Below, one piece after another: positions 29,508-38,589 of a DNA stretch of 50,527 bases (within the stretch, counting starts at the first letter, position 1; every line of letters begins with the position of its first letter). The position numbers and the translations under genes were made by a program. Source of the DNA: Gammaproteobacteria bacterium (GTDB lineage: Bacteria; Pseudomonadota; Gammaproteobacteria; Steroidobacterales; Woeseiaceae); contig JAACFM010000007.1 of the NCBI GenBank assembly GCA_009937445.1, forward strand, positions 1 through 50,527. Reading direction: 5' to 3'. The notes below the pieces were generated by a model that saw only the letters and a program-made list of their open reading frames with translations, made no database searches and had not been told where the DNA came from.

Positions 29508-29993
29508 ATGCTGGATCGCTTTAGCGAGCGCCTTGGTAAGGCCGCATCATGGCTGACGCTTTTCATGGTCCTCGTGACCTTCGTTGTCGTCGTCATGCGT
29601 TATGTGTTCGACATGGGCTTTATCTGGCTACAGGAGTCTGTGGTCTGGATGCATGCCTTCGTGTTTATGGTGGGTGCGGCATACACCTTGCAACAGGAAG
29701 AGCATGTACGAGTCGATATTTTCTACCGGGACATGTCAGCCAAGGGCCGCGCCTGGGTCAATATTCTCGGCATCCTTCTATTTCTTTTTCCACTGTGCGC
29801 GTTTCTCGCGTGGGCGGCTTTTGATTTTGTTGCCGTGTCGTGGCGACTGCAAGAGGCATCGCGTGAGTCCGGTGGCTTGCCCTATCCTCTGCTTCCGCTC
29901 CTCAAGTCGATTCTCGTCGTCATGCCGATTACGGTAAGTCTGCAGGGCTTTTCGCTGTTGGCCCGCAGCCTGAAAGAACTGCGGAGCAACTAG
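29508..29993 (+). CDS. dctQ: TRAP transporter small permease (DctQ)
   Basis: The small membrane subunit of a tripartite ATP-independent periplasmic transporter, a Na+-coupled importer of organic acids or related solutes. The 161 residues form four helices with the family pattern VTFVVVVMRYVFDMGFIWLQE and QQEEHVRVDIFY. It starts 1 bp after trkH and ends 1 bp before dctM. The matching periplasmic binding protein is not adjacent; the only one in the window is at 37.5 kb on the other strand. Confidence 0.93.
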   Translation: MLDRFSERLGKAASWLTLFMVLVTFVVVVMRYVFDMGFIWLQESVVWMHAFVFMVGAAYTLQQEEHVRVDIFYRDMSAKGRAWVNILGILLFLFPLCAFLAWAAFDFVAVSWRLQEASRESGGLPYPLLPLLKSILVVMPITVSLQGFSLLARSLKELRSN

Positions 29994-29994
29994 C

Positions 29995-31371
29995 GTGGAA
30001 TGGGTCGCCGCACTGCTGTTCATTAGCGTCATCCTGATACTGCTGGCGGGTTTTCCCGTTGCGTTTACGCTCGGCGGAACCGCCCTGCTGTTCGCAGGGT
30101 TCGGTGTGCTCGGCGGTGGTTTTAATGAAGCGTTTCTATCGGGCCTGCCAAATCGTATCTTTGGCATCATGACCAATGAAACATTGGTCGCCGTTCCGCT
30201 TTTCGTTTTTATGGGGGTAACACTCGAGCGAGCACGCATCGCTGAGGACTTGCTTGAAACGCTGAGTGCGCTGTTCGGTACATTACGGGGCGGTCTTGGT
30301 ATATCGGTCACCCTGGTTGGGATGCTACTCGCCGCCAGCACCGGCATTGTCGGCGCGACCGTCGTAACGATGGGGCTGTTATCGCTGCCAACCATGCTAA
30401 AGCGCGGATACTCACCCGAAATTTCAGCGGGCACGATTTGCGCGTCTGGCACGTTGGGTCAAATCATTCCCCCGTCGATCATTCTGGTGATGCTCGGCGA
30501 TGTCATGACCACGGCCTACCAGCAGGCGCAGCTGGATATGGGCATTTTCTCTCCGAAAACCGTATCGGTGGGCGACCTGTTTGCCGGCGCCTTGATTCCG
30601 GGTCTCCTGCTGGTGTTTTTGTACATCATTTACATACTCGCGGTTGCCTTCTTTAAGCCCAATACGATGCCAGCTCACCACCGCGAGCCAGGCGAGAGCG
30701 TGTCTGTTCGCGACGTTTTTCGTGCGCTATTGCCGCCGTTGCTGTTGATTTTCGCCGTTCTTGGATCGATTCTGGGTGGTTATGCCACACCAACCGAGGC
30801 GGCGGGGGTAGGCGGCATGGGCGCGCTCGTGATGGCTATCGCACGCCGACAATTGAATCTCGAGCGCCTGCAAGAAATCATGCGGAGCACGTTGCGTATC
30901 AGCAGCATGGTGTTCCTGATTCTGATCGGGGCCTCGATTTTCTCGCTGGTCTTTCGGGGTTACGGCGGTGACGATGGTGTACGGGCGTTGCTGGAGTCGC
31001 TCCCCGGGGGGGTTGTTGGTGCGGTTATTGTCGTTATGCTGGTCATGTTCCTGCTGGGATTCGTACTCGATTTTATCGAGATCACGTTTGTTGTTGTGCC
31101 CATCGTTGGGCCAGTATTGCTGGCGATGGGTCTGGACCCTGTCTGGCTCGGCATCATGATCGCGATCAACTTACAGACCTCATTTCTGACGCCACCGTTC
31201 GGCTTTGCTTTGTTTTATCTTCGCGGTGTCGCGCCGCCGTCAATTACTACGGCACAAATCTATCGCGGGGTCATACCTTTTGTTGCGATACAGATCTTCG
31301 CCTTGCTGTTACTCGCCGCATTCCCTGAGCTTGTAACCTGGCTACCAGGGAAGATTTACGGCGGCAATTAG
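29995..31371 (+). CDS. dctM: TRAP transporter large permease (DctM)
   Basis: The large permease subunit, an elevator-type transport protein with about twelve helices in 458 residues. Family blocks include NETLVAVPLFVFMGVTLERA, LLAASTGIVGATVVTMGLLS, SGTLGQIIPPSIILVMLGD and LQTSFLTPPFGFALFYLRGV. The start is GTG at 29995. The 3' end overlaps the convergent aminotransferase gene by 30 bp, which places the transport and catabolic genes in close contact. Confidence 0.95.
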   Translation: MEWVAALLFISVILILLAGFPVAFTLGGTALLFAGFGVLGGGFNEAFLSGLPNRIFGIMTNETLVAVPLFVFMGVTLERARIAEDLLETLSALFGTLRGGLGISVTLVGMLLAASTGIVGATVVTMGLLSLPTMLKRGYSPEISAGTICASGTLGQIIPPSIILVMLGDVMTTAYQQAQLDMGIFSPKTVSVGDLFAGALIPGLLLVFLYIIYILAVAFFKPNTMPAHHREPGESVSVRDVFRALLPPLLLIFAVLGSILGGYATPTEAAGVGGMGALVMAIARRQLNLERLQEIMRSTLRISSMVFLILIGASIFSLVFRGYGGDDGVRALLESLPGGVVGAVIVVMLVMFLLGFVLDFIEITFVVVPIVGPVLLAMGLDPVWLGIMIAINLQTSFLTPPFGFALFYLRGVAPPSITTAQIYRGVIPFVAIQIFALLLLAAFPELVTWLPGKIYGGN

Positions 31372-32658
31372 TTTCTCCACTAACTCCTCCTGACCCCTGT
31401 CATCGAGATTGTAGGGCGGCGCCAAAAGGATGTGGTCACCGCGTCGCCCATCAATTGTGCCGCCCATCCCATAACAAAGAAGGCCGTCGTCCATCGCCTG
31501 CGCCTGAATTTTGTTATGTAGTTTTAGCGCCGGGTCGAACGGCTTCTTGCTTTGCCGGTCCTGCACAAACTCGACGCCAATGAACATGCCACGACCACGA
31601 ACATCGCCAACGTAGGGATGATTCGCAAACGCCTTGCGGAGCTGCGTCTTTATTTGCTTACCTCTCCGCGCAACGTTGTCGAGCAAGTTCTCGTCTCTGA
31701 TTACTTGCTGCGCGGCGAGTGCGGCCGCCACCGCGGTCGCGTGTCCCATGAATGTGTGACCGTGTTGAAAATAGCCGCTGTTGTTTCTTAGCGTCTCGAC
31801 GATCTTGCGGGTACACAGTAATGCGCCCACGGGTTGATAGCCGGCCGCAAGTCCCTTCGCCATCGTGACGATGTCGGGTTCAATCTGCTCTTGCTGGTAC
31901 GCCATCATGGAGCCGGTTCGGCCTGTCCCGCACATGACTTCATCGAGAATGAGATGAATCCCATAGCGGTCGCAGATTTCTCGAATACGGCTGAAGTAGC
32001 CGGGTATCGCGACAACCGCACCTGCCGTCGCGCCGACGACTGTTTCAGCGACAAAAGCAGCGACGTTTTCCGCGCCCAGCTCCTCAATCTTGTCTTCAAG
32101 CTCAAGAGCCACCCGCTCGCAATAATCTTTCTGCGTTTCCTCGGTGTTTCGCTCGCGGTACTCGAAACATGGTGCTATGTGATGGCCGTCAACCAGAAGT
32201 GGCCGAAACGATTCGCGTCGCCACTCGTTTCCGCCTACCGCCAGCGCGCCGAGGGTGTTGCCGTGATAGCTCTGGCGACGAGCGATAAAGAGGTGCCTTT
32301 GTGGCTCTCCGGACTCCAGGAAATATTGCCGGGATAATTTCAGCGCGGCTTCGACCGCTTCGGACCCACCGGACAAAAGCAGCACCTTGCTCATGCCCGG
32401 CGCACCGGTAACCAGGGTTTCCGCGAGCTCTTCCAGAACGTCCGTCGTGAAGAACGATGTGTGCGCATAGGGAAGTTTTTCGACCTGTTTTTGAATGGCC
32501 TCGATGATGGCGGGGTGGCTGTGGCCAAGACAGGAAACGGCGGCGCCACCGGACGCATCAAAATAGCGTTTTCCCGCGCTGTCGATCAGGTGGGCACCGT
32601 CACCCCTGACCGCGCGCGGCGGCCTCTTCAACAGATTTCTGTGCAACGCAAAACTCAT
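31342..32658 (-). CDS. Class III PLP-dependent aminotransferase
   Basis: A fold type I omega-aminotransferase of 438 residues. The PLP lysine is Lys268 in TMAKGLAAGYQPVGA; the ring-nitrogen aspartate is Asp239 in LILDEVMCGTGRTG, and LSGGSEAVEAALKLSRQ near residue 95 binds the phosphate. These enzymes move an amino group between an amine or amino acid and a keto acid such as pyruvate; the substrate cannot be read from sequence. It lies 7 bp after the RpiR regulator gene in the same operon, within a group of uptake genes and an FAD amine oxidase, so a role in catabolism of the imported compound is likely. Confidence 0.9.
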   Translation of the reverse strand: MSFALHRNLLKRPPRAVRGDGAHLIDSAGKRYFDASGGAAVSCLGHSHPAIIEAIQKQVEKLPYAHTSFFTTDVLEELAETLVTGAPGMSKVLLLSGGSEAVEAALKLSRQYFLESGEPQRHLFIARRQSYHGNTLGALAVGGNEWRRESFRPLLVDGHHIAPCFEYRERNTEETQKDYCERVALELEDKIEELGAENVAAFVAETVVGATAGAVVAIPGYFSRIREICDRYGIHLILDEVMCGTGRTGSMMAYQQEQIEPDIVTMAKGLAAGYQPVGALLCTRKIVETLRNNSGYFQHGHTFMGHATAVAAALAAQQVIRDENLLDNVARRGKQIKTQLRKAFANHPYVGDVRGRGMFIGVEFVQDRQSKKPFDPALKLHNKIQAQAMDDGLLCYGMGGTIDGRRGDHILLAPPYNLDDRGQEELVEKLIAAVNLPW

Positions 32659-32665
32659 GTCGTGA

Positions 32666-33532
32666 TTACCAATAGGCGCTGATTCGTGACAGCTGCTTTT
32701 CAGCGTCTTCGGCGATTTTCACCGCGTCGCCGCCTGCCTTCGTAACGAGCATCGTTACCAGCGCTTGCGTAACGGCCAGCGCTCCGGTGAATGAGTGGTA
32801 GAAAGAAGGCGATTGATTTCTCGTAACGATAGTGTGCGCAGCTGCGTTGGCCGCGGGTGAGGCGATACTGTCGGTCACTGCCACGATGTCTGCTCCGGCG
32901 TCTGCCGCGTATTCCACTGCGTCAATCGTAAGTCGCGTATACGGCGGAAAGGAAATCACCAACAGGCAGTCCCCTGCACCGATACCGCGCAGCTGGTCCG
33001 CAAAAATGCCAGCTGCAGCGTCAACCAGCTGGCTTTTGTCCTGGAATAACTGATAGGCATAGTGAAACAGGAATGCGGGGGCATGGGCGCCGCGCATTCC
33101 CAATACGTAGACCCTTCGACTGTCATGTATCGTTTGCGCCGCGGCGTCCATGACCGCGTAGTTGGCGTCGGACAGCGAACCATTGATATTGGCTATCTCC
33201 TGCGTGCGAAGATCGTCGAACAATGCCTTCTCGCCTGATTGCCCAAGGTGCTGCACGCGCTGCAGTTTTCTGGCGAAGTCCGGAGAGGCGGCTCGAAGAC
33301 GCTGTCGGAACGGCTCGCGGAGCGATTCGTAGTCGCTAAAGCCCAGGGTTTTTGCCAGCCGGGTAATCGTCGCCGGCTTTACGCCCGCCTCTCTGGCAAC
33401 GCCGCGCATTGAATTCAGACCGACTTCTTCAGGATGATCCACCATGAAACGGGCCGCCTTTTGTAGTTCGGGCGTCAGTTTCGGGTACGAATCGATAAGC
33501 AGTCTGATGGTTTCAGGGTATCGGCTGTGCAT
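32666..33532 (-). CDS. MurR/RpiR family transcriptional regulator with SIS domain
   Basis: Residues about 1-80 are an RpiR-type helix-turn-helix (NSMRGVAREAGVKPATITRLAKTLGFSDYE); about 115-255 are a SIS domain with YVLGMRGAHAPAFLFHYAYQ and LLVISFPPYTR, which in this family senses phosphosugars or other metabolites. The start at 33532 is chosen over an in-frame GTG at 33559, which has no ribosome site. The gene leads the aminotransferase operon and is divergent from the TonB receptor, with two repeated 13-mers in the gap that are probable binding sites. It likely controls the whole locus. Confidence 0.9.
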   Translation of the reverse strand: MHSRYPETIRLLIDSYPKLTPELQKAARFMVDHPEEVGLNSMRGVAREAGVKPATITRLAKTLGFSDYESLREPFRQRLRAASPDFARKLQRVQHLGQSGEKALFDDLRTQEIANINGSLSDANYAVMDAAAQTIHDSRRVYVLGMRGAHAPAFLFHYAYQLFQDKSQLVDAAAGIFADQLRGIGAGDCLLVISFPPYTRLTIDAVEYAADAGADIVAVTDSIASPAANAAAHTIVTRNQSPSFYHSFTGALAVTQALVTMLVTKAGGDAVKIAEDAEKQLSRISAYW

Positions 33533-33579
33533 GCACTCGCTTCTTGCTGTGCGCCGCACATAGAATCAACGGCACGTAA

Positions 33580-33622
33580 TGAAACATTTGTTTTATAGAT
33601 AGACTATAGTGAATCATTCGTT
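33580..33622. promoter_or_regulatory. Probable RpiR operator: two 13-bp direct repeats
   Basis: TGAAACATTTGTT (33580-33592) and TGAATCATTCGTT (33610-33622) differ at two positions and start exactly 30 bp apart, about three helical turns. The first extends to a near-palindrome (33580-33595). They lie between the divergent regulator and TonB receptor genes. Same-face spacing is typical of sites bound by two dimers of one regulator. Confidence 0.6.
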
Positions 33623-33701
33623 GCATTGATATAACTCATCCGCTAGGTTTACGGGTTGAGCCAATAAAACTAATTGGCACGGTGCGTATCGCAAGATTGT
33701 T

Positions 33702-33731
33702 TAGTTATATTTTTTGTCTAGTTATATTTTT
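33702..33731 (+). repeat. 13-bp direct repeat in the TonB receptor leader
   Basis: TAGTTATATTTTT occurs at 33702-33714 and again at 33719-33731, a period of 17 bp, ending 17 bp before the receptor ATG. Each copy contains a possible -10 (TATATT). It may be a duplicated promoter element or an AT-rich enhancer of translation; it is too AT-rich to judge by eye. Confidence 0.4.
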
Positions 33732-33747
33732 CCGGGGGAAAAACAAA

Positions 33748-36135
33748 ATGAGTAAGAAATCCATTTCCTATGGCGCGCTAGCGCTCGTGCTTGGTTGCTC
33801 GGGCCTGACGTTCCAAAGCGCACTTGCGCAGGACGATGAAATGATCGAAGAGGTCATTACGATCGGCTCGCGCAGCATGAAGCCGCGGTCGGCATCAGAT
33901 TCAACCGTTCCGATCGACGTTATCAGCGCTGATGACTTTAGCTCTGTTGGCAGCACCGCTGACCTGACCGACAACCTGAAAGCACTGATTCCGTCTTATA
34001 CCGCGACACCAGCAACCGGCGACGGCAGCGCATTTGTTCGTCCGACGTCGCTTCGCGGCACCGCACCGGACCAGTCACTGGTTCTTGTCGATGGCAAACG
34101 CCGACATCGTTCTGCATTGGTGCAGTTCTTCGCACCGGCTGCCGGTAATGGCGCGCATGGCGCTGATGTCGGCATGATCCCGGGTATCGCGGTCAAGAGT
34201 GTCGAAGTACTGCGTGACGGCGCATCGTCACAATACGGATCAGATGCTATCGCAGGCGTTATCAACTTCGTAATGAAAGACGCGTCTGAGGGCGGCTCGG
34301 TACAGGTTACTTATGGCGAACACTATGAAGGCGAGCAAAGCACGAAGCTCGCGGCTAACGCTGGTTTCGCTTTAGGCGACAGCGGCTTTGCGAACGTCAG
34401 CCTGGAATACGTTGACAACGACGGTCTTTCACGCGGCATACAGCGCACCAGCAACTACGACGCGCTGATCGACCTGGGCGTCGACCCAAGCGTTATCGGT
34501 GCTGATGCGCCGTTTGGCGACGCACCCCTTCTGCAGTCGTGGGGTCGTCCGGAAACAGAAGGCATTCGCTTCTTCCTGAATTCGGGCTTCGACATTAGCG
34601 ATACGTCCGAAATCTATGCTCGCTTCAGCGCCGCTGAGACAGACGGTCGCTACCGCTTCTTCTACCGCACCTACGATCACAGCACGCTGGCGCCACTGCG
34701 CGACATGGGCTTTACCGGCCTGCCCGCTGGCTACACGCCATTCCTCGACGGCAATCAGCAAGATGCCAGTCTGGTCCTTGGTATGCGGGGCGAGTTTGAC
34801 AATGGCATGCTGTACGACGTCAGCTACGGTTACGGCAAAGACGAACTCAGCTATTACCTGAACAATACCGTCAATGTTGATCTTGGCCTGGATGACAGCC
34901 TGAATATTCCCCAGATGGGTTTTGACATGGGTGGGTACATTCAAGAAGAGAATAACTTCAACCTTGATTTCTCTCTGCCAATTAGCGACAGCGTAAATCT
35001 TGCTTTCGGTGCTGAAGCGCGCGAAGAGAAATTCAGTGTGATTGCTGGTGAGCCAGCCGCGACCTTCCGTGGCGGTCCCAGTGGTATGACGGCCAGCCGT
35101 CCGGCTGAAGCCGGTGAATTTACCCGTGACAACATAGCGATTTATGCAGACGTTGAGCACGATGTTTCTGATGCGCTTCTGATGCAGTACGCCATTCGTT
35201 ACGAAAACTTCTCCGATTTTGGTCCTACAACAAACGCCAAAATTGCGGGTCGTTACCGTGTCAGCGACACGCTCGCTTTCCGCGGTGCTGTTTCGACAGG
35301 TTTCCACGCCCCAACACCGGGCCAGGCAAACGTCAGAACCACCATCACCACATTTGACGGAAGCTCGGGACTGCAGCAGGAAGAACAGCTCGTTGCACCA
35401 ACATCGTCACTCGCACTTGAAAATGGTGGCGCGCCGCTGACTGAAGAGAAGTCCTTGAACTTCAGCATCGGCTTCGCATCCGACATTTTTGACAACTGGA
35501 CGCTCACGGCTGACTACTATCGTATCGAGGTGTCCGACCGTATTTACCGCGTTGGCGACATAACTATCGACGACCCGTTAATTTCGTCAATTTCGTTTTA
35601 CACGAATGCGCTGGACGTCAGTCATCAGGGTATCGACCTGGTTGTAACGGGTGGTATCGGAGACAACACCGACCTTACCTTCGCGTATGCATTCAATCAG
35701 ATCAGTGTAGACGGTCAGTCGCTGATAAACGGAATCCCGCCGGTAAGCGATGGAACAGTTGAAGACATTGAGAACAACTATCCGGAACATCGCTTTACGT
35801 TGTCGGCCAATACGCAGTTCACTGATAAGTTGGATCTGATGGCTCGCGCTACCTACTACGGCGAACATTATGATGAGCGCGGCACGATTGGTGCAGCGGT
35901 GGATCCAAGCGCCAAGATCGGTTCAACGATCTATCTTGATATGGAACTTGGCTTTCAGGCAACCGACAGTCTGCGCGTCGCTTTGGGTGCCGTAAACATA
36001 CTTGATGAGTTCGTCGATACGATCGGCCCACCAAACGCCAATCGTCTGAGCGTTGGTCTGCAATACCCACGTCGCAGTGCCGCGAACTACGAGGGTGGCT
36101 CCTGGTACCTGAAGGGGATTTACTCCTTCCAGTAA
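33748..36135 (+). CDS. TonB-dependent outer membrane receptor
   Basis: A TonB-gated outer membrane channel of 795 residues. The start at 33748 gives a signal peptide of about 26 residues (ending SALAQ) and has GGGGGAA upstream. A TonB-box-like EEVITIGSR follows, then the plug domain (about 45-190, with FVRPTSLRGTAPDQSLVLVD and GVINFVMK), and a 22-strand barrel ending WYLKGIYSFQ with the terminal aromatic expected for BAM. No siderophore or vitamin B12 gene lies nearby; its neighbours are a RpiR regulator, TRAP permeases and PLP and FAD enzymes, so an organic nitrogen compound, not iron, is the likelier cargo. Confidence 0.92.
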   Translation: MSKKSISYGALALVLGCSGLTFQSALAQDDEMIEEVITIGSRSMKPRSASDSTVPIDVISADDFSSVGSTADLTDNLKALIPSYTATPATGDGSAFVRPTSLRGTAPDQSLVLVDGKRRHRSALVQFFAPAAGNGAHGADVGMIPGIAVKSVEVLRDGASSQYGSDAIAGVINFVMKDASEGGSVQVTYGEHYEGEQSTKLAANAGFALGDSGFANVSLEYVDNDGLSRGIQRTSNYDALIDLGVDPSVIGADAPFGDAPLLQSWGRPETEGIRFFLNSGFDISDTSEIYARFSAAETDGRYRFFYRTYDHSTLAPLRDMGFTGLPAGYTPFLDGNQQDASLVLGMRGEFDNGMLYDVSYGYGKDELSYYLNNTVNVDLGLDDSLNIPQMGFDMGGYIQEENNFNLDFSLPISDSVNLAFGAEAREEKFSVIAGEPAATFRGGPSGMTASRPAEAGEFTRDNIAIYADVEHDVSDALLMQYAIRYENFSDFGPTTNAKIAGRYRVSDTLAFRGAVSTGFHAPTPGQANVRTTITTFDGSSGLQQEEQLVAPTSSLALENGGAPLTEEKSLNFSIGFASDIFDNWTLTADYYRIEVSDRIYRVGDITIDDPLISSISFYTNALDVSHQGIDLVVTGGIGDNTDLTFAYAFNQISVDGQSLINGIPPVSDGTVEDIENNYPEHRFTLSANTQFTDKLDLMARATYYGEHYDERGTIGAAVDPSAKIGSTIYLDMELGFQATDSLRVALGAVNILDEFVDTIGPPNANRLSVGLQYPRRSAANYEGGSWYLKGIYSFQ

Positions 36136-36166
36136 GCCAAAGTAAAAAGGGCGCTTAGCGTCGAAG

Positions 36167-36200
36167 AAACCGGTCATCGCAAGGTGGCCGGTTTTTTTTC
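36167..36200 (+). terminator. Intrinsic terminator after the TonB receptor
   Basis: AAACCGG (36167-36173) pairs with CCGGTTT (36188-36194), extended inward by three further pairs, and runs into eight Ts (36192-36199). It ends the receptor transcript 16 bp before the convergent oxidase stop. Confidence 0.88.
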
Positions 36201-36215
36201 GTCTACAGAACCTGG

Positions 36216-37511
36216 CTATAACAGGCCTTTGTTTTGAGTCGCCGCCAGATCCGACATGAGCTCTTCGTTATCGAGTCTCGCAAGACTCAGGTCGGCGGCA
36301 TACGCTGGCAACCTGTCGCCACAAACAGTGTCTGCGCAAAGTTTACCCGCCGCACACGCGGCCATGGTTCCGAATCCGGAGAGCGCACCAACGACAAAGG
36401 CTCCGCGCCGATCCAGCGGGCCAATCAGGGGCCAGTTTTCTGCTGTCATCGTGTAATAGCCGCCGTAATGGCTGAAGCGAGGCGGTGGCTGACTCACATA
36501 AGCCGCCATCGCCGGGAGGAAACTCGCCGCACCTCGAATAACGATTTCGGGAAAGCTCGGGTCGATCGCCGGTTCGTTGGCGAGATCTTCCTGCGCTGCA
36601 GAGGTCTGTTGGTTGTACGCCCAACCGAGCTTGACCCACTCGCCGTTAGCGCCACCCTCCGGTCGGCAGTGTGTCCCACTGGGTAATGTCTCGGTAAGCC
36701 AGGCGAGCGCCGGATCTTCCACGAGCATTTCTCGTTCTTCGTCGGTCCAGTTCAGTCGTTTGGCGTCGAGGTCGATCGAAAACGGCATATCGCGCGGGAT
36801 CACGCCAAGGTGGTCCTGGAAGGCGATCTTTTGCTGAAATACGTTTTTCACGGGCAGATCGACGCCCAGCATTCGAGCGATTCGAGCAACGAACGGTCCC
36901 GCGGCATTGACGATCATTTCGGCCTCTACGGTTCGCAGACCGGACTCTGTCATGACGCTCAATTGGTATTGATTCTTGTCAGCAATCGCCGTTACTTCTC
37001 CGCGCAGCCGCCGGCCACCGCCTGCGTTGAATTCTTGCAGCAAGTACTGGGCGAGTTGCTGCCCACTGATATCGCCACCGCGGCGGATGTGGACAACGTT
37101 TCGAATATCGGACGACAGCGCGGGAAAGCGCTCTCGAATTTTTTGACCTGTCGTCAGGACGTCTACGTCGATATCACCAGGGATCGCGGCCAACATGTCG
37201 TCGAGGTCTTTCTTGCGCGTCGCGAGACAATAACCGCCTCTTCTCATATGAAAGACATTTTCAGATTCTCGCGCCAGACGATCCAGCTCGTCGATGCTGT
37301 CGTTGGTAAAGTCCGTCATCGTGCGATGCGGCCACCAGTTCCTGTAGTTGTCCCCCGACTGCGCGCTGGTGAAGCTCATCGGTTGACGGCTGTCGATGAG
37401 CAACACGGACTTCTTGTTACGCACGGCGCACAAGTAATACGCCGTGGCGATGCCGGCGATGCCGGCACCTATGATTGCTACCTCAACTGTCTGCTCAGCT
37501 TTGCCGTGAAT
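36216..37511 (-). CDS. FAD-dependent amine/amino acid oxidoreductase (DAO family), non-standard start
   Basis: A flavoprotein of the D-amino acid oxidase/sarcosine oxidase superfamily. The Rossmann motif VAIIGAGIAGIATAYYL is in frame upstream of the first standard start codon (TTG at 37433), so a product starting there would lack the FAD site. In frame, only ATT at 37511 lies between that motif and a TGA stop; the sequence reads ATT then HGKAEQTVEVAIIGAG. The likely full protein is about 431 residues and overlaps dctP by 17 bp. Later blocks MRRGGYCLATRK, AEMIVNAAGPFVARIARMLG and the C-terminal GPLDRRGAFVVGALSGFGTM support the fold. Substrate unknown; an amine or N-substituted amino acid fits. 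Confidence 0.8.
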   Translation of the reverse strand: MHGKAEQTVEVAIIGAGIAGIATAYYLCAVRNKKSVLLIDSRQPMSFTSAQSGDNYRNWWPHRTMTDFTNDSIDELDRLARESENVFHMRRGGYCLATRKKDLDDMLAAIPGDIDVDVLTTGQKIRERFPALSSDIRNVVHIRRGGDISGQQLAQYLLQEFNAGGGRRLRGEVTAIADKNQYQLSVMTESGLRTVEAEMIVNAAGPFVARIARMLGVDLPVKNVFQQKIAFQDHLGVIPRDMPFSIDLDAKRLNWTDEEREMLVEDPALAWLTETLPSGTHCRPEGGANGEWVKLGWAYNQQTSAAQEDLANEPAIDPSFPEIVIRGAASFLPAMAAYVSQPPPRFSHYGGYYTMTAENWPLIGPLDRRGAFVVGALSGFGTMAACAAGKLCADTVCGDRLPAYAADLSLARLDNEELMSDLAATQNKGLL

Positions 37512-38589
37512 TCAGGTAGGCCCTTTCAGAAATGTTGGTGTTGGCTTCCATTTTCTCGAGATATTCGTAAAACGCTTTGCCAATCTTTTCCGAAGCCGGA
37601 TCCTTCGCCATCAGCTCGGAGACAATATCGGCCGTTATTGATTTCAGGTGCTGCAATACCTCGTTTGGAAAGGGTCGCACTTCAATATTAGGGTCAGCCA
37701 ATATCTGTTGCAGAGAATTCGCATTTCCGTTCGTGTACTCCGCAGCCATGTCGACGGTGATCGACTGGCAGCTTATTTCGACCAGCGCTTGCAGGTCCTC
37801 CGGCAGTGACTCCCATGCATCCTTGTTAATCATACACTCGAGTCCCGCGCCGGGCTCTTGCCACCCCGGGTAATAATAGTATCTGGCCGCCTTGTGCAGC
37901 CCGAACGAAACATCGTTATACGGCCCGACCCATTCGGTCGCATCGATTGCGCCGGTTTGCAAAGACGTAAAGATCTCGGAGCCCGGCAAGGTAACCGGCG
38001 TTCCACCGGCGCGGCGCAAAACCTCTCCGCCCAGTCCGGGGATTCGCATTTTGAGACCTTGCAGGTCATCAACACTGTTGATTTCCTTGTTGAACCAGCC
38101 ACCCATTTGCACACCCGTGTTGCCGCACAGAAAGGGTACGAGATTGAAGGGCTCATAAAGCTCCCGCCATAAGGCGTGGCCGCCCCCATAGTGAATCCAG
38201 GCGTTGAGCTCCATGTAGTTGAGCCCAAAGGGAATGGCGGTAAAAAACTGTGCAGCGTCTACTTTGCCCTTGTGGTAATACGATGCATCGTGGCCCATCT
38301 CCACCGTCCCGCGGCTAACCGCATCGAACACCTCAAAGGGCGGAACCAGCTCTCCACCACCGTAGACCTTTATTTTCAGGCGCCCGCCAGAAGCCCTGTC
38401 CAGTCGTTCGGCGAGATTCTCGACCGCCATTCCAAGACCCGGAAACCTTGGTGGCCACGATGTCACGCAAGACCACTCAAAGGACTCCGTCGGGACATTC
38501 ACCCCGGTGGTGCAGTCGCTTTGTGGTTTCGCGCAGCCGGCCAATCCTGCTGCAGCGGCGAGGCCGCCAACAAATTCTCTTCTTTTCAT
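37495..38589 (-). CDS. dctP: TRAP transporter substrate-binding protein, TakP-like Tat lipoprotein
   Basis: The periplasmic receptor of a TRAP transporter, 364 residues. The N-terminus has a twin-arginine motif (KRREFVGG) and a lipobox LAGC with Cys19, so it is probably a Tat-exported lipoprotein. The core blocks GGWFNKEI, LKMRIPGLGGEVLRRAG, IDATEWVGPYNDVSFGLHKA and YYYYPGWQEPG match the TakP group, whose studied members bind 2-keto acids such as pyruvate. It is translationally linked to the oxidase gene downstream. It is the only TRAP binding protein in the window, so it probably serves dctQM at 29.5 kb. Confidence 0.9.
   Translation of the reverse strand: MKRREFVGGLAAAAGLAGCAKPQSDCTTGVNVPTESFEWSCVTSWPPRFPGLGMAVENLAERLDRASGGRLKIKVYGGGELVPPFEVFDAVSRGTVEMGHDASYYHKGKVDAAQFFTAIPFGLNYMELNAWIHYGGGHALWRELYEPFNLVPFLCGNTGVQMGGWFNKEINSVDDLQGLKMRIPGLGGEVLRRAGGTPVTLPGSEIFTSLQTGAIDATEWVGPYNDVSFGLHKAARYYYYPGWQEPGAGLECMINKDAWESLPEDLQALVEISCQSITVDMAAEYTNGNANSLQQILADPNIEVRPFPNEVLQHLKSITADIVSELMAKDPASEKIGKAFYEYLEKMEANTNISERAYLNSRQS

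Follow-up and report, generated by a model that had tools for sequence, protein, structure and literature searches.

Do a TonB-dependent receptor, a tripartite ATP-independent periplasmic (TRAP) transporter, an RpiR-type regulator, a class III aminotransferase and a flavin adenine dinucleotide (FAD)-dependent amine oxidase, encoded together within 9 kb, form one catabolic route? The question is raised by a stretch of 50,527 nucleotides (contig JAACFM010000007.1 of assembly GCA_009937445.1, ‘the window’ below) from a member of the Woeseiaceae, a gammaproteobacterial family that is abundant in sea sediments and whose nutrition is, to our knowledge, poorly known. A preliminary description of this DNA had proposed a single complete route for an amino compound or its keto form, with the TRAP transporter as the inner-membrane step. 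The named genes are instead two units: a core TRAP transporter (dctQ, dctM and dctP) and a cassette of four genes (aminotransferase, rpiR, tonB and oxidase) lying between the ends of dctM and dctP. The explanation we favour, at slightly better than even chances, is that the cassette is a regulated catabolic unit within the junction of a core keto-acid TRAP transporter, and that it scavenges a nitrogenous substrate, probably an N-substituted amino compound.

Gene content of the locus

In sequence, trkA (assigned by eye), trkH, dctQ and dctM lie on the plus strand, followed by the aminotransferase and rpiR (minus), the receptor (plus) and the oxidase and dctP (minus). All genes of the preliminary description are present where it placed them, and in a profile search of the window each of them exceeds its Pfam cut-off; the ends of the receptor and oxidase genes need correction (see below). 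The features are as follows.

29508..29993, plus strand: dctQ, TRAP small membrane subunit (PF04290, 80.1 bits against a cut-off of 28.3); core transporter, outside the cassette
29995..31371, plus strand: dctM, TRAP large membrane subunit (PF06808 and TIGR00786, above cut-off); core transporter
31342..32658, minus strand: class III aminotransferase, NCBIfam PRK07483 (NF005685, 709.5 bits against a cut-off of 485); cassette gene 1
32666..33559, minus strand: RpiR-type regulator (PF01418, HTH_6, 32.5 against 28.3 bits; PF01380, SIS, 62.9 against 25); cassette gene 2
33579..33596, no strand: putative RpiR operator site 1, an 18-bp palindrome with one mismatch to ATGAAWCAWWTGWTTCAT
33609..33626, no strand: putative RpiR operator site 2, three mismatches to ATGAAWCAWWTGWTTCAT, 30 bp from site 1
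33748..36135, plus strand: TonB-dependent receptor (PF07715, Plug, and PF00593, barrel, above cut-off; ATG start by inspection); cassette gene 3
36216..37511, minus strand: FAD-dependent amine oxidase/dehydrogenase of the DAO family (PF01266); cassette gene 4
37495..38589, minus strand: dctP, TakP-type keto-acid binding protein (PF03480; PDB neighbours 5cm6, 4pet, 7ug8 and 2hzk); core transporter

The 3′ ends of the aminotransferase and dctM overlap by 30 bp. The window has no Rfam or tRNA matches, and sigma-70 promoter and terminator scans gave no more than in shuffled sequence. The host assembly is of draft quality, with 3.3 Mb in 175 contigs at 90% completeness; judged by the oxidase gene, its nearest named relatives are metagenome-assembled genomes (MAGs) labelled Woeseiaceae or Proteobacteria.

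Distribution and history of the cassette

The cassette was followed through the genus in 61 genomes, a sample of a larger group. A dctP match at 1e-60 or better is found in 56 of them, the one in G018 being only a 38% paralogue; orthologues (at least 66% identity) are present in 55, and dctM matches, where found, are 81–93% identical. Downstream of dctP the sequence was read in all 55 genomes; the far side is limited by contig ends. In 15 of the 55, cassette genes occupy the space between dctM and dctP, which face each other tail to tail. Eight of these, the window genome included (G000, G014, G017, G028, G029, G030, G061 and G081), have the complete, contiguous cassette with the same order, strands and site, and seven (G009, G016, G024, G068, G070, G080 and G083) have a partial or rearranged one. 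The junction is seen without the cassette in 36 genomes in which both genes were found. Among the 40 non-carriers the gap between the dctM and dctP match ends is at most 100 bp in 21, 101–1000 bp in 5 and more than 1 kb in 10; in 4, dctM lies outside the fetched stretch, and in two of these, G020 and G060, the contig ends near dctP. As the transporter is present in 55 genomes and the cassette in 15, the TRAP system is the widespread unit and the cassette is lodged in its junction. A single genus thus offers 15 carriers and as many as 40 non-carriers whose habitats can be compared.

Among the incomplete copies, G024 retains the receptor and an oxidase remnant, G083 has a match only to the end of rpiR, and G016 and G080 each hold cassette parts on two contigs. 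The split in G016 (L025, L176) falls between receptor and oxidase, with further sequence beyond on each contig, and is either a rearrangement or an assembly fault.

A tree of DctP and DctM (four genomes enter with DctP only; L030 was added from another collection) places all 16 carriers, the 15 and L030, on one side of a branch holding 29 genomes (SH-aLRT 99), of which 13 are non-carriers. The 13 cassette aminotransferases form one clade (support 99). One gain with many losses is the simplest history; the tree alone is no proof of it, and we favour it because site, order and strands agree.

A related locus in another bacterial class

The preliminary description had looked to a gene-neighbourhood comparison for clustering elsewhere, and the four genes do stand together outside the window, in the seven other genus genomes with a complete cassette and on a Henriciella MAG contig (L039) assigned to another bacterial class. 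That contig holds a gene for a beta-keto acid cleavage enzyme (BKACE) together with the aminotransferase, rpiR, receptor and oxidase, ordered as in the window (52%, 30%, 61% and 54% identical to those of the window). The Henriciella oxidase is not behind dctP; it follows the receptor on the same strand, the opposite of the window arrangement, so the pair could share a regulated promoter. No TRAP match was found in this 21-kb stretch; the search for TRAP genes did not extend to the remainder of the genome. Queried against 348 genomes of the Henriciella order, the Henriciella oxidase finds three matches at 1e-70, itself and two at 48–49% identity.

This second occurrence bears on whether the dctM–dctP junction is simply an insertion hotspot in which the four genes are chance neighbours that form no functional unit. 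Ten of the 36 cassette-free junctions do contain 1.2–6.6 kb of other DNA, two of them with a receptor-like gene by eye, but the same four genes stand together, with a similar if weaker palindrome pair (see below), on a contig assigned to another class, and we regard an accidental grouping as improbable. Receptor-like genes at or next to a cassette-free junction were seen in G021 (L194) and G007 (L188), both by eye, and in G060 (L204, a 31% match), as if the junction attracted TonB receptors.

A further genome, G077 (L145), has a receptor homologue (43%), an aminotransferase homologue (52%), a pipecolate-oxidase-like FAD gene, cuyB and cuyA on one strand. Receptor, flavoenzyme and aminotransferase thus co-occur a second way, with a different kind of FAD amine oxidase.

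The protein kinds in the cassette are known; its arrangement and the oxidase start look unusual. Literature searches, which covered titles and abstract beginnings for part of the returns, found no paper on this gene cluster or its arrangement. In the main text of a paper on Woeseiaceae (PMC12175321), TRAP and aminotransferase have no occurrences.

Regulator and putative operator

The gap between rpiR and tonB contains two palindromes resembling ATGAAWCAWWTGWTTCAT, exactly 30 bp apart, in all 11 loci that have both genes (0–3 mismatches at one site, 3–5 at the other). In Henriciella the weaker pair is 31 bp apart, with 4 and 5 mismatches. Sites 1 and 2 are the only matches with four or fewer mismatches in the 50.5 kb of the window. 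Across the whole genome there are five matches with at most two mismatches, both sites included; a reversed control pattern gives none. The palindrome pair is likely to be the RpiR operator, and this conserved pair is the sequence evidence for the link between the regulator and its neighbours that the preliminary description had supposed. It makes the cassette a small, testable gene set with a predicted operator for a nitrogenous compound.

Ahead of dctP no operator-like site was found. The best candidates have 5–8 mismatches in the 15 carriers with enough sequence there (all but G017 of the 16) and 4–8 in the 40 non-carriers. RpiR probably controls tonB and rpiR–aminotransferase, with the oxidase going with dctP.

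The other three genomic matches, half-patterns with two mismatches, lie, judged by eye, inside coding sequence (two) and ahead of a gene for an Lrp-type regulator (one). The last (L229:3866, on another contig of the host) stands between the Lrp-type gene and an oppositely oriented gene that is, by eye, a dioxygenase.

The oxidase and its junction with dctP

The oxidase frame opens at 37511 rather than at 37433; a start at TTG 37433 would remove the GxGxxG FAD motif, which is present as IIGAGIAGI in the frame from 37511. No ATG, GTG or TTG occurs in the window frame between the preceding stop and this motif, and the only near-cognate codon listed in that interval is ATT at 37511, nine bases after AAAGGG. 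Its overlap with dctP, in the +1 frame, can reach 17 bp (37495–37511). It opens within the dctP end, again in +1, in all 14 oxidase loci compared (the window and the L021–L031, L190 and L211 junctions; G070, where the oxidase is absent, and G024, with its remnant, are not part of the start-codon comparison). From 12 codons before to 8 codons after the dctP stop, ATG is absent from all 14 loci; GTG or TTG is present in seven, and none of the three codons in the other seven, the window among them. In G009, GTG directly follows the dctP stop.

The oxidase frames are stop-free (L032, with one in-frame stop, was excluded from the alignment). Three pairs gave ratios of non-synonymous to synonymous change of 0.13, 0.09 and 0.16; both copies in the first pair lack an ordinary start near the junction, and in the second synonymous change is near saturation. 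The base before the dctP stop is C in 13 of 14 oxidase carriers against 18 of 40 non-carriers (p = 0.002, kinship uncorrected), and the +2 frame is shorter in carriers (p = 0.006). Nature here offers an example of a gene that has stayed intact through long divergence although no ATG is found near its start, half of the copies having no ordinary start codon there. The arrangement favours a weak start at which translation would be coupled to dctP termination.

A different use of the overlap would be a +1 frameshift by which the oxidase is partly made as a fusion to DctP, which looks to be exported; tethered in this way, the enzyme would oxidise the compound admitted by the TonB receptor in the periplasm and pass its keto product on to the membrane subunits of the TRAP system. 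The +1 frame is no longer in carriers (median 38 codons against 47 in controls, p = 0.17), no recurring slippery motif was noticed by eye, and both the GTG behind the dctP stop of G009 and the position of the Henriciella oxidase speak against a fusion. Oxidase homologues near electron-transfer flavoprotein (ETF) genes further suggest a cytosolic enzyme. We consider the fusion very improbable.

The oxidase model (mean confidence score pLDDT 87) has fold matches with Z-scores of 35–41 at approximately 16–20% identity. The best are the proline dehydrogenase beta subunit, sarcosine oxidase and glycine oxidase, and D-arginine dehydrogenase is found as well; the fold is also that of dimethylglycine dehydrogenase, at similarly low identity. 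On the modelled structure, the fold indicates amine oxidation, not which amine. About 33 residues present in most near relatives are missing from both the Woeseiaceae cassette oxidases and that of Henriciella. Non-cassette relatives occur near ProC-like reductase genes (a Pfam match in L042, with L044 and L045 grouped with it by similarity; annotated in the plasmid hits H1, H3, H4 and H6), near ETF genes (by eye in L044, by annotation in H1 and H4) and near amino acid or TRAP transporters; 7 of the 14 plasmid hits were opened.

The TRAP transporter

The window encodes a complete TRAP set of receptor, small and large membrane subunits (PF03480, PF04290 and PF06808, above cut-off). In a search of PDB sequences DctP matches the TakP entry 2hzk at 2.8e-75, and, as the preliminary description had noted, it is TakP-like. 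The pyruvate- and cation-binding residues of TakP named in a passage of PMC1839085 are Tyr100, Gln156, Arg177 and Trp215. Correspondence between DctP and TakP was drawn by motifs and through an alignment with the keto-acid binder 7ug8, with which the DctP site motifs align apart from the Trp, replaced by Phe in 7ug8. The motifs ASYY, GVQMGG, MRIPG and EWVGP begin at residues 102, 159, 181 and 219 of DctP and keep the residue types of the pyruvate/cation site, of which we take Glu214 of TakP to be a further member. By eye, the signal of DctP looks to be of the twin-arginine lipoprotein type. DctP thus resembles the binding protein of TakPQM, the alpha-keto acid TRAP transporter of Rhodobacter sphaeroides, in sequence and in site residue types. 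The gene order differs: takP, takQ and takM form one operon, whereas dctP is here apart from dctQM and convergent with them, and in carriers its 3′ end is overlapped by the oxidase frame. We read the system as a TakP-type keto-acid transporter with predicted 2-keto acid binding.

Could this transporter nevertheless import the cassette substrate or its keto form, so that receptor, TRAP system, oxidase, aminotransferase and regulator are one dedicated route? Close packing of all the genes, the overlap of oxidase and dctP in every oxidase locus and the likeness of DctP to keto-acid binders are what such a route would lead one to expect. Against it stand the cassette-free junctions in 36 of 55 genomes, the Henriciella stretch with cassette genes and no TRAP match, the lack of an operator-like site ahead of dctP, and the ligand preference of TakP, described in a passage of PMC1839085 as disfavouring charged or polar ligands. 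We consider the single route unlikely. The preliminary idea of a linked uptake-and-breakdown set holds for the four non-TRAP genes but is not supported for the transporter.

The receptor and its standalone relatives

The receptor most likely begins at ATG 33748, which has a GGGGG stretch ahead and was preferred on inspection to the GTG 33682 of the open reading frame list; three relatives have a stop in the stretch ahead of the ATG. PDB sequences give only weak matches (siderophore, colicin and B12 receptors), over the plug. Six standalone homologues are known, five of which were read with their flanks (that of G026 is on a 3.7-kb contig). In the receptor tree these five nest inside the cassette receptors, and all of them (L140, L141, L143, L146 and L148) have a second large receptor-like gene, a CtlX-like gene and an arginine dihydrolase-like gene alongside. 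In L141, CtlX exceeds its NCBIfam cut-off, the dihydrolase falls below its own, and Pfam gives no family in the second large gene. An M61 peptidase-like gene, with a weak family match, comes next in some of these loci.

These neighbours are of interest for a narrower version of our explanation, in which the oxidase would split an N-carboxyalkyl amino acid, such as an opine of marine animals, into an amino acid and a keto acid, the latter recovered by DctP. Besides the arginine-related genes, it can draw on the flavin opine dehydrogenase 7fgp and the iminodiacetate oxidase 6pxs among the structural matches, and on an oxidase homologue (48%) that has an amino acid transporter as its neighbour on pAtK84c, a plasmid of Agrobacterium K84. 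The fold, however, is too common among amine oxidases to point to opines in particular, the cassette has no recognised opine gene, and the literature searched gave nothing relevant. We give the opine route little credence.

Proposed role of the cassette

Returning to the favoured explanation, a scavenging cassette in the TRAP junction, the receptor would admit a scarce or bulky, probably N-substituted, amino compound through the outer membrane. The DAO-type flavoenzyme would oxidise the amine of the imported compound, and the class III aminotransferase would take the amino group off the oxidase product. RpiR would sense a ligand through its SIS domain, bind the twin palindromes and control the divergent rpiR and tonB units; the oxidase would be read from the dctP transcript, its translation coupled to the dctP stop. 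The TRAP transporter would import pyruvate-type 2-keto acids and at most supply the acceptor or recover a product for the cassette.

Several observations weigh against this explanation. Single genes are absent from some copies: G009 has receptor and oxidase only, G068 no rpiR match, G070 no oxidase and L030 no aminotransferase match, so a single pathway need not involve all four genes, although the assemblies concerned are drafts. The tree requires at least ten changes between carrier and non-carrier, seven of them forced by well-supported branches. The 17-base pattern of one operator site matches the window twice where 0.51 matches are expected, a count equalled in 10 of 100 shuffles; moreover, the consensus was built from the same loci in which it was then counted. 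As shuffles reach the same count, the operator case rests on conservation and place, not on number. The closest standalone receptors stand beside arginine/citrulline hydrolase genes rather than amine oxidases. The oxidase is also the least constrained of the compared genes in two of the three pairs.

The aminotransferase and its relatives

The window aminotransferase is far above the cut-off of the PRK07483 model (NF005685), which names no substrate beyond ‘aspartate aminotransferase family protein’; no paper naming PRK07483 was found in the literature searched. There are 19 non-cassette matches (16 + 3); the flanks were read for 17, all but G019:C80 and G024:C46. A BKACE gene lies within 5.2 kb of the aminotransferase homologue in nine of the 17, and adjacent on the same strand in six, Henriciella and Pelagibius being included. 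This recommends a second narrower version of the favoured explanation: the aminotransferase would turn a beta-amino acid into a beta-keto acid, to be cleaved with acetyl-CoA by a BKACE encoded elsewhere in the genome, and the host indeed has two BKACE genes. Neither has a tblastn match at 1e-8 to the BKACE linked to the aminotransferase in Henriciella, however, and none of the 13 Woeseiaceae cassettes has a BKACE gene in the stretch read. Nor are the nine loci independent (L153, L177 and L178 are close relatives; L169, L170 and L172 belong to one distant family branch), and other homologues sit with cysteate genes. The BKACE version is possible but doubtful. In L169, L170, L172 and L051 of the host genome, BKACE genes (by profile) are near an acetylpolyamine deacetylase-like gene, recognised by eye; in the first three loci an aminotransferase homologue also lies no more than 5.2 kb from the BKACE gene.

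Cysteate genes lie beside the aminotransferase in 7 of the 17 non-cassette loci, assigned in L153 above NCBIfam cut-offs, in L145, L177 and L178 by similarity and in L142, L144 and L149 by eye. Other Woeseiaceae place aminotransferase homologues beside cuyA and cuyB, whereas the window cassette has neither: a search of the window sequence with CuyA and CuyB found nothing, and the host CuyA gene lies on a different contig, where the 20 kb read contain neither an aminotransferase nor a receptor match. Relatives of the aminotransferase thus take part in more than a single pathway and do not point to one substrate for the window cassette. The homologues that stand with cysteate racemase and sulfo-lyase genes, accompanied by BKACE in L153, L177 and L178 and by a receptor and an FAD oxidase in L145, may represent a separate organosulfonate cluster.

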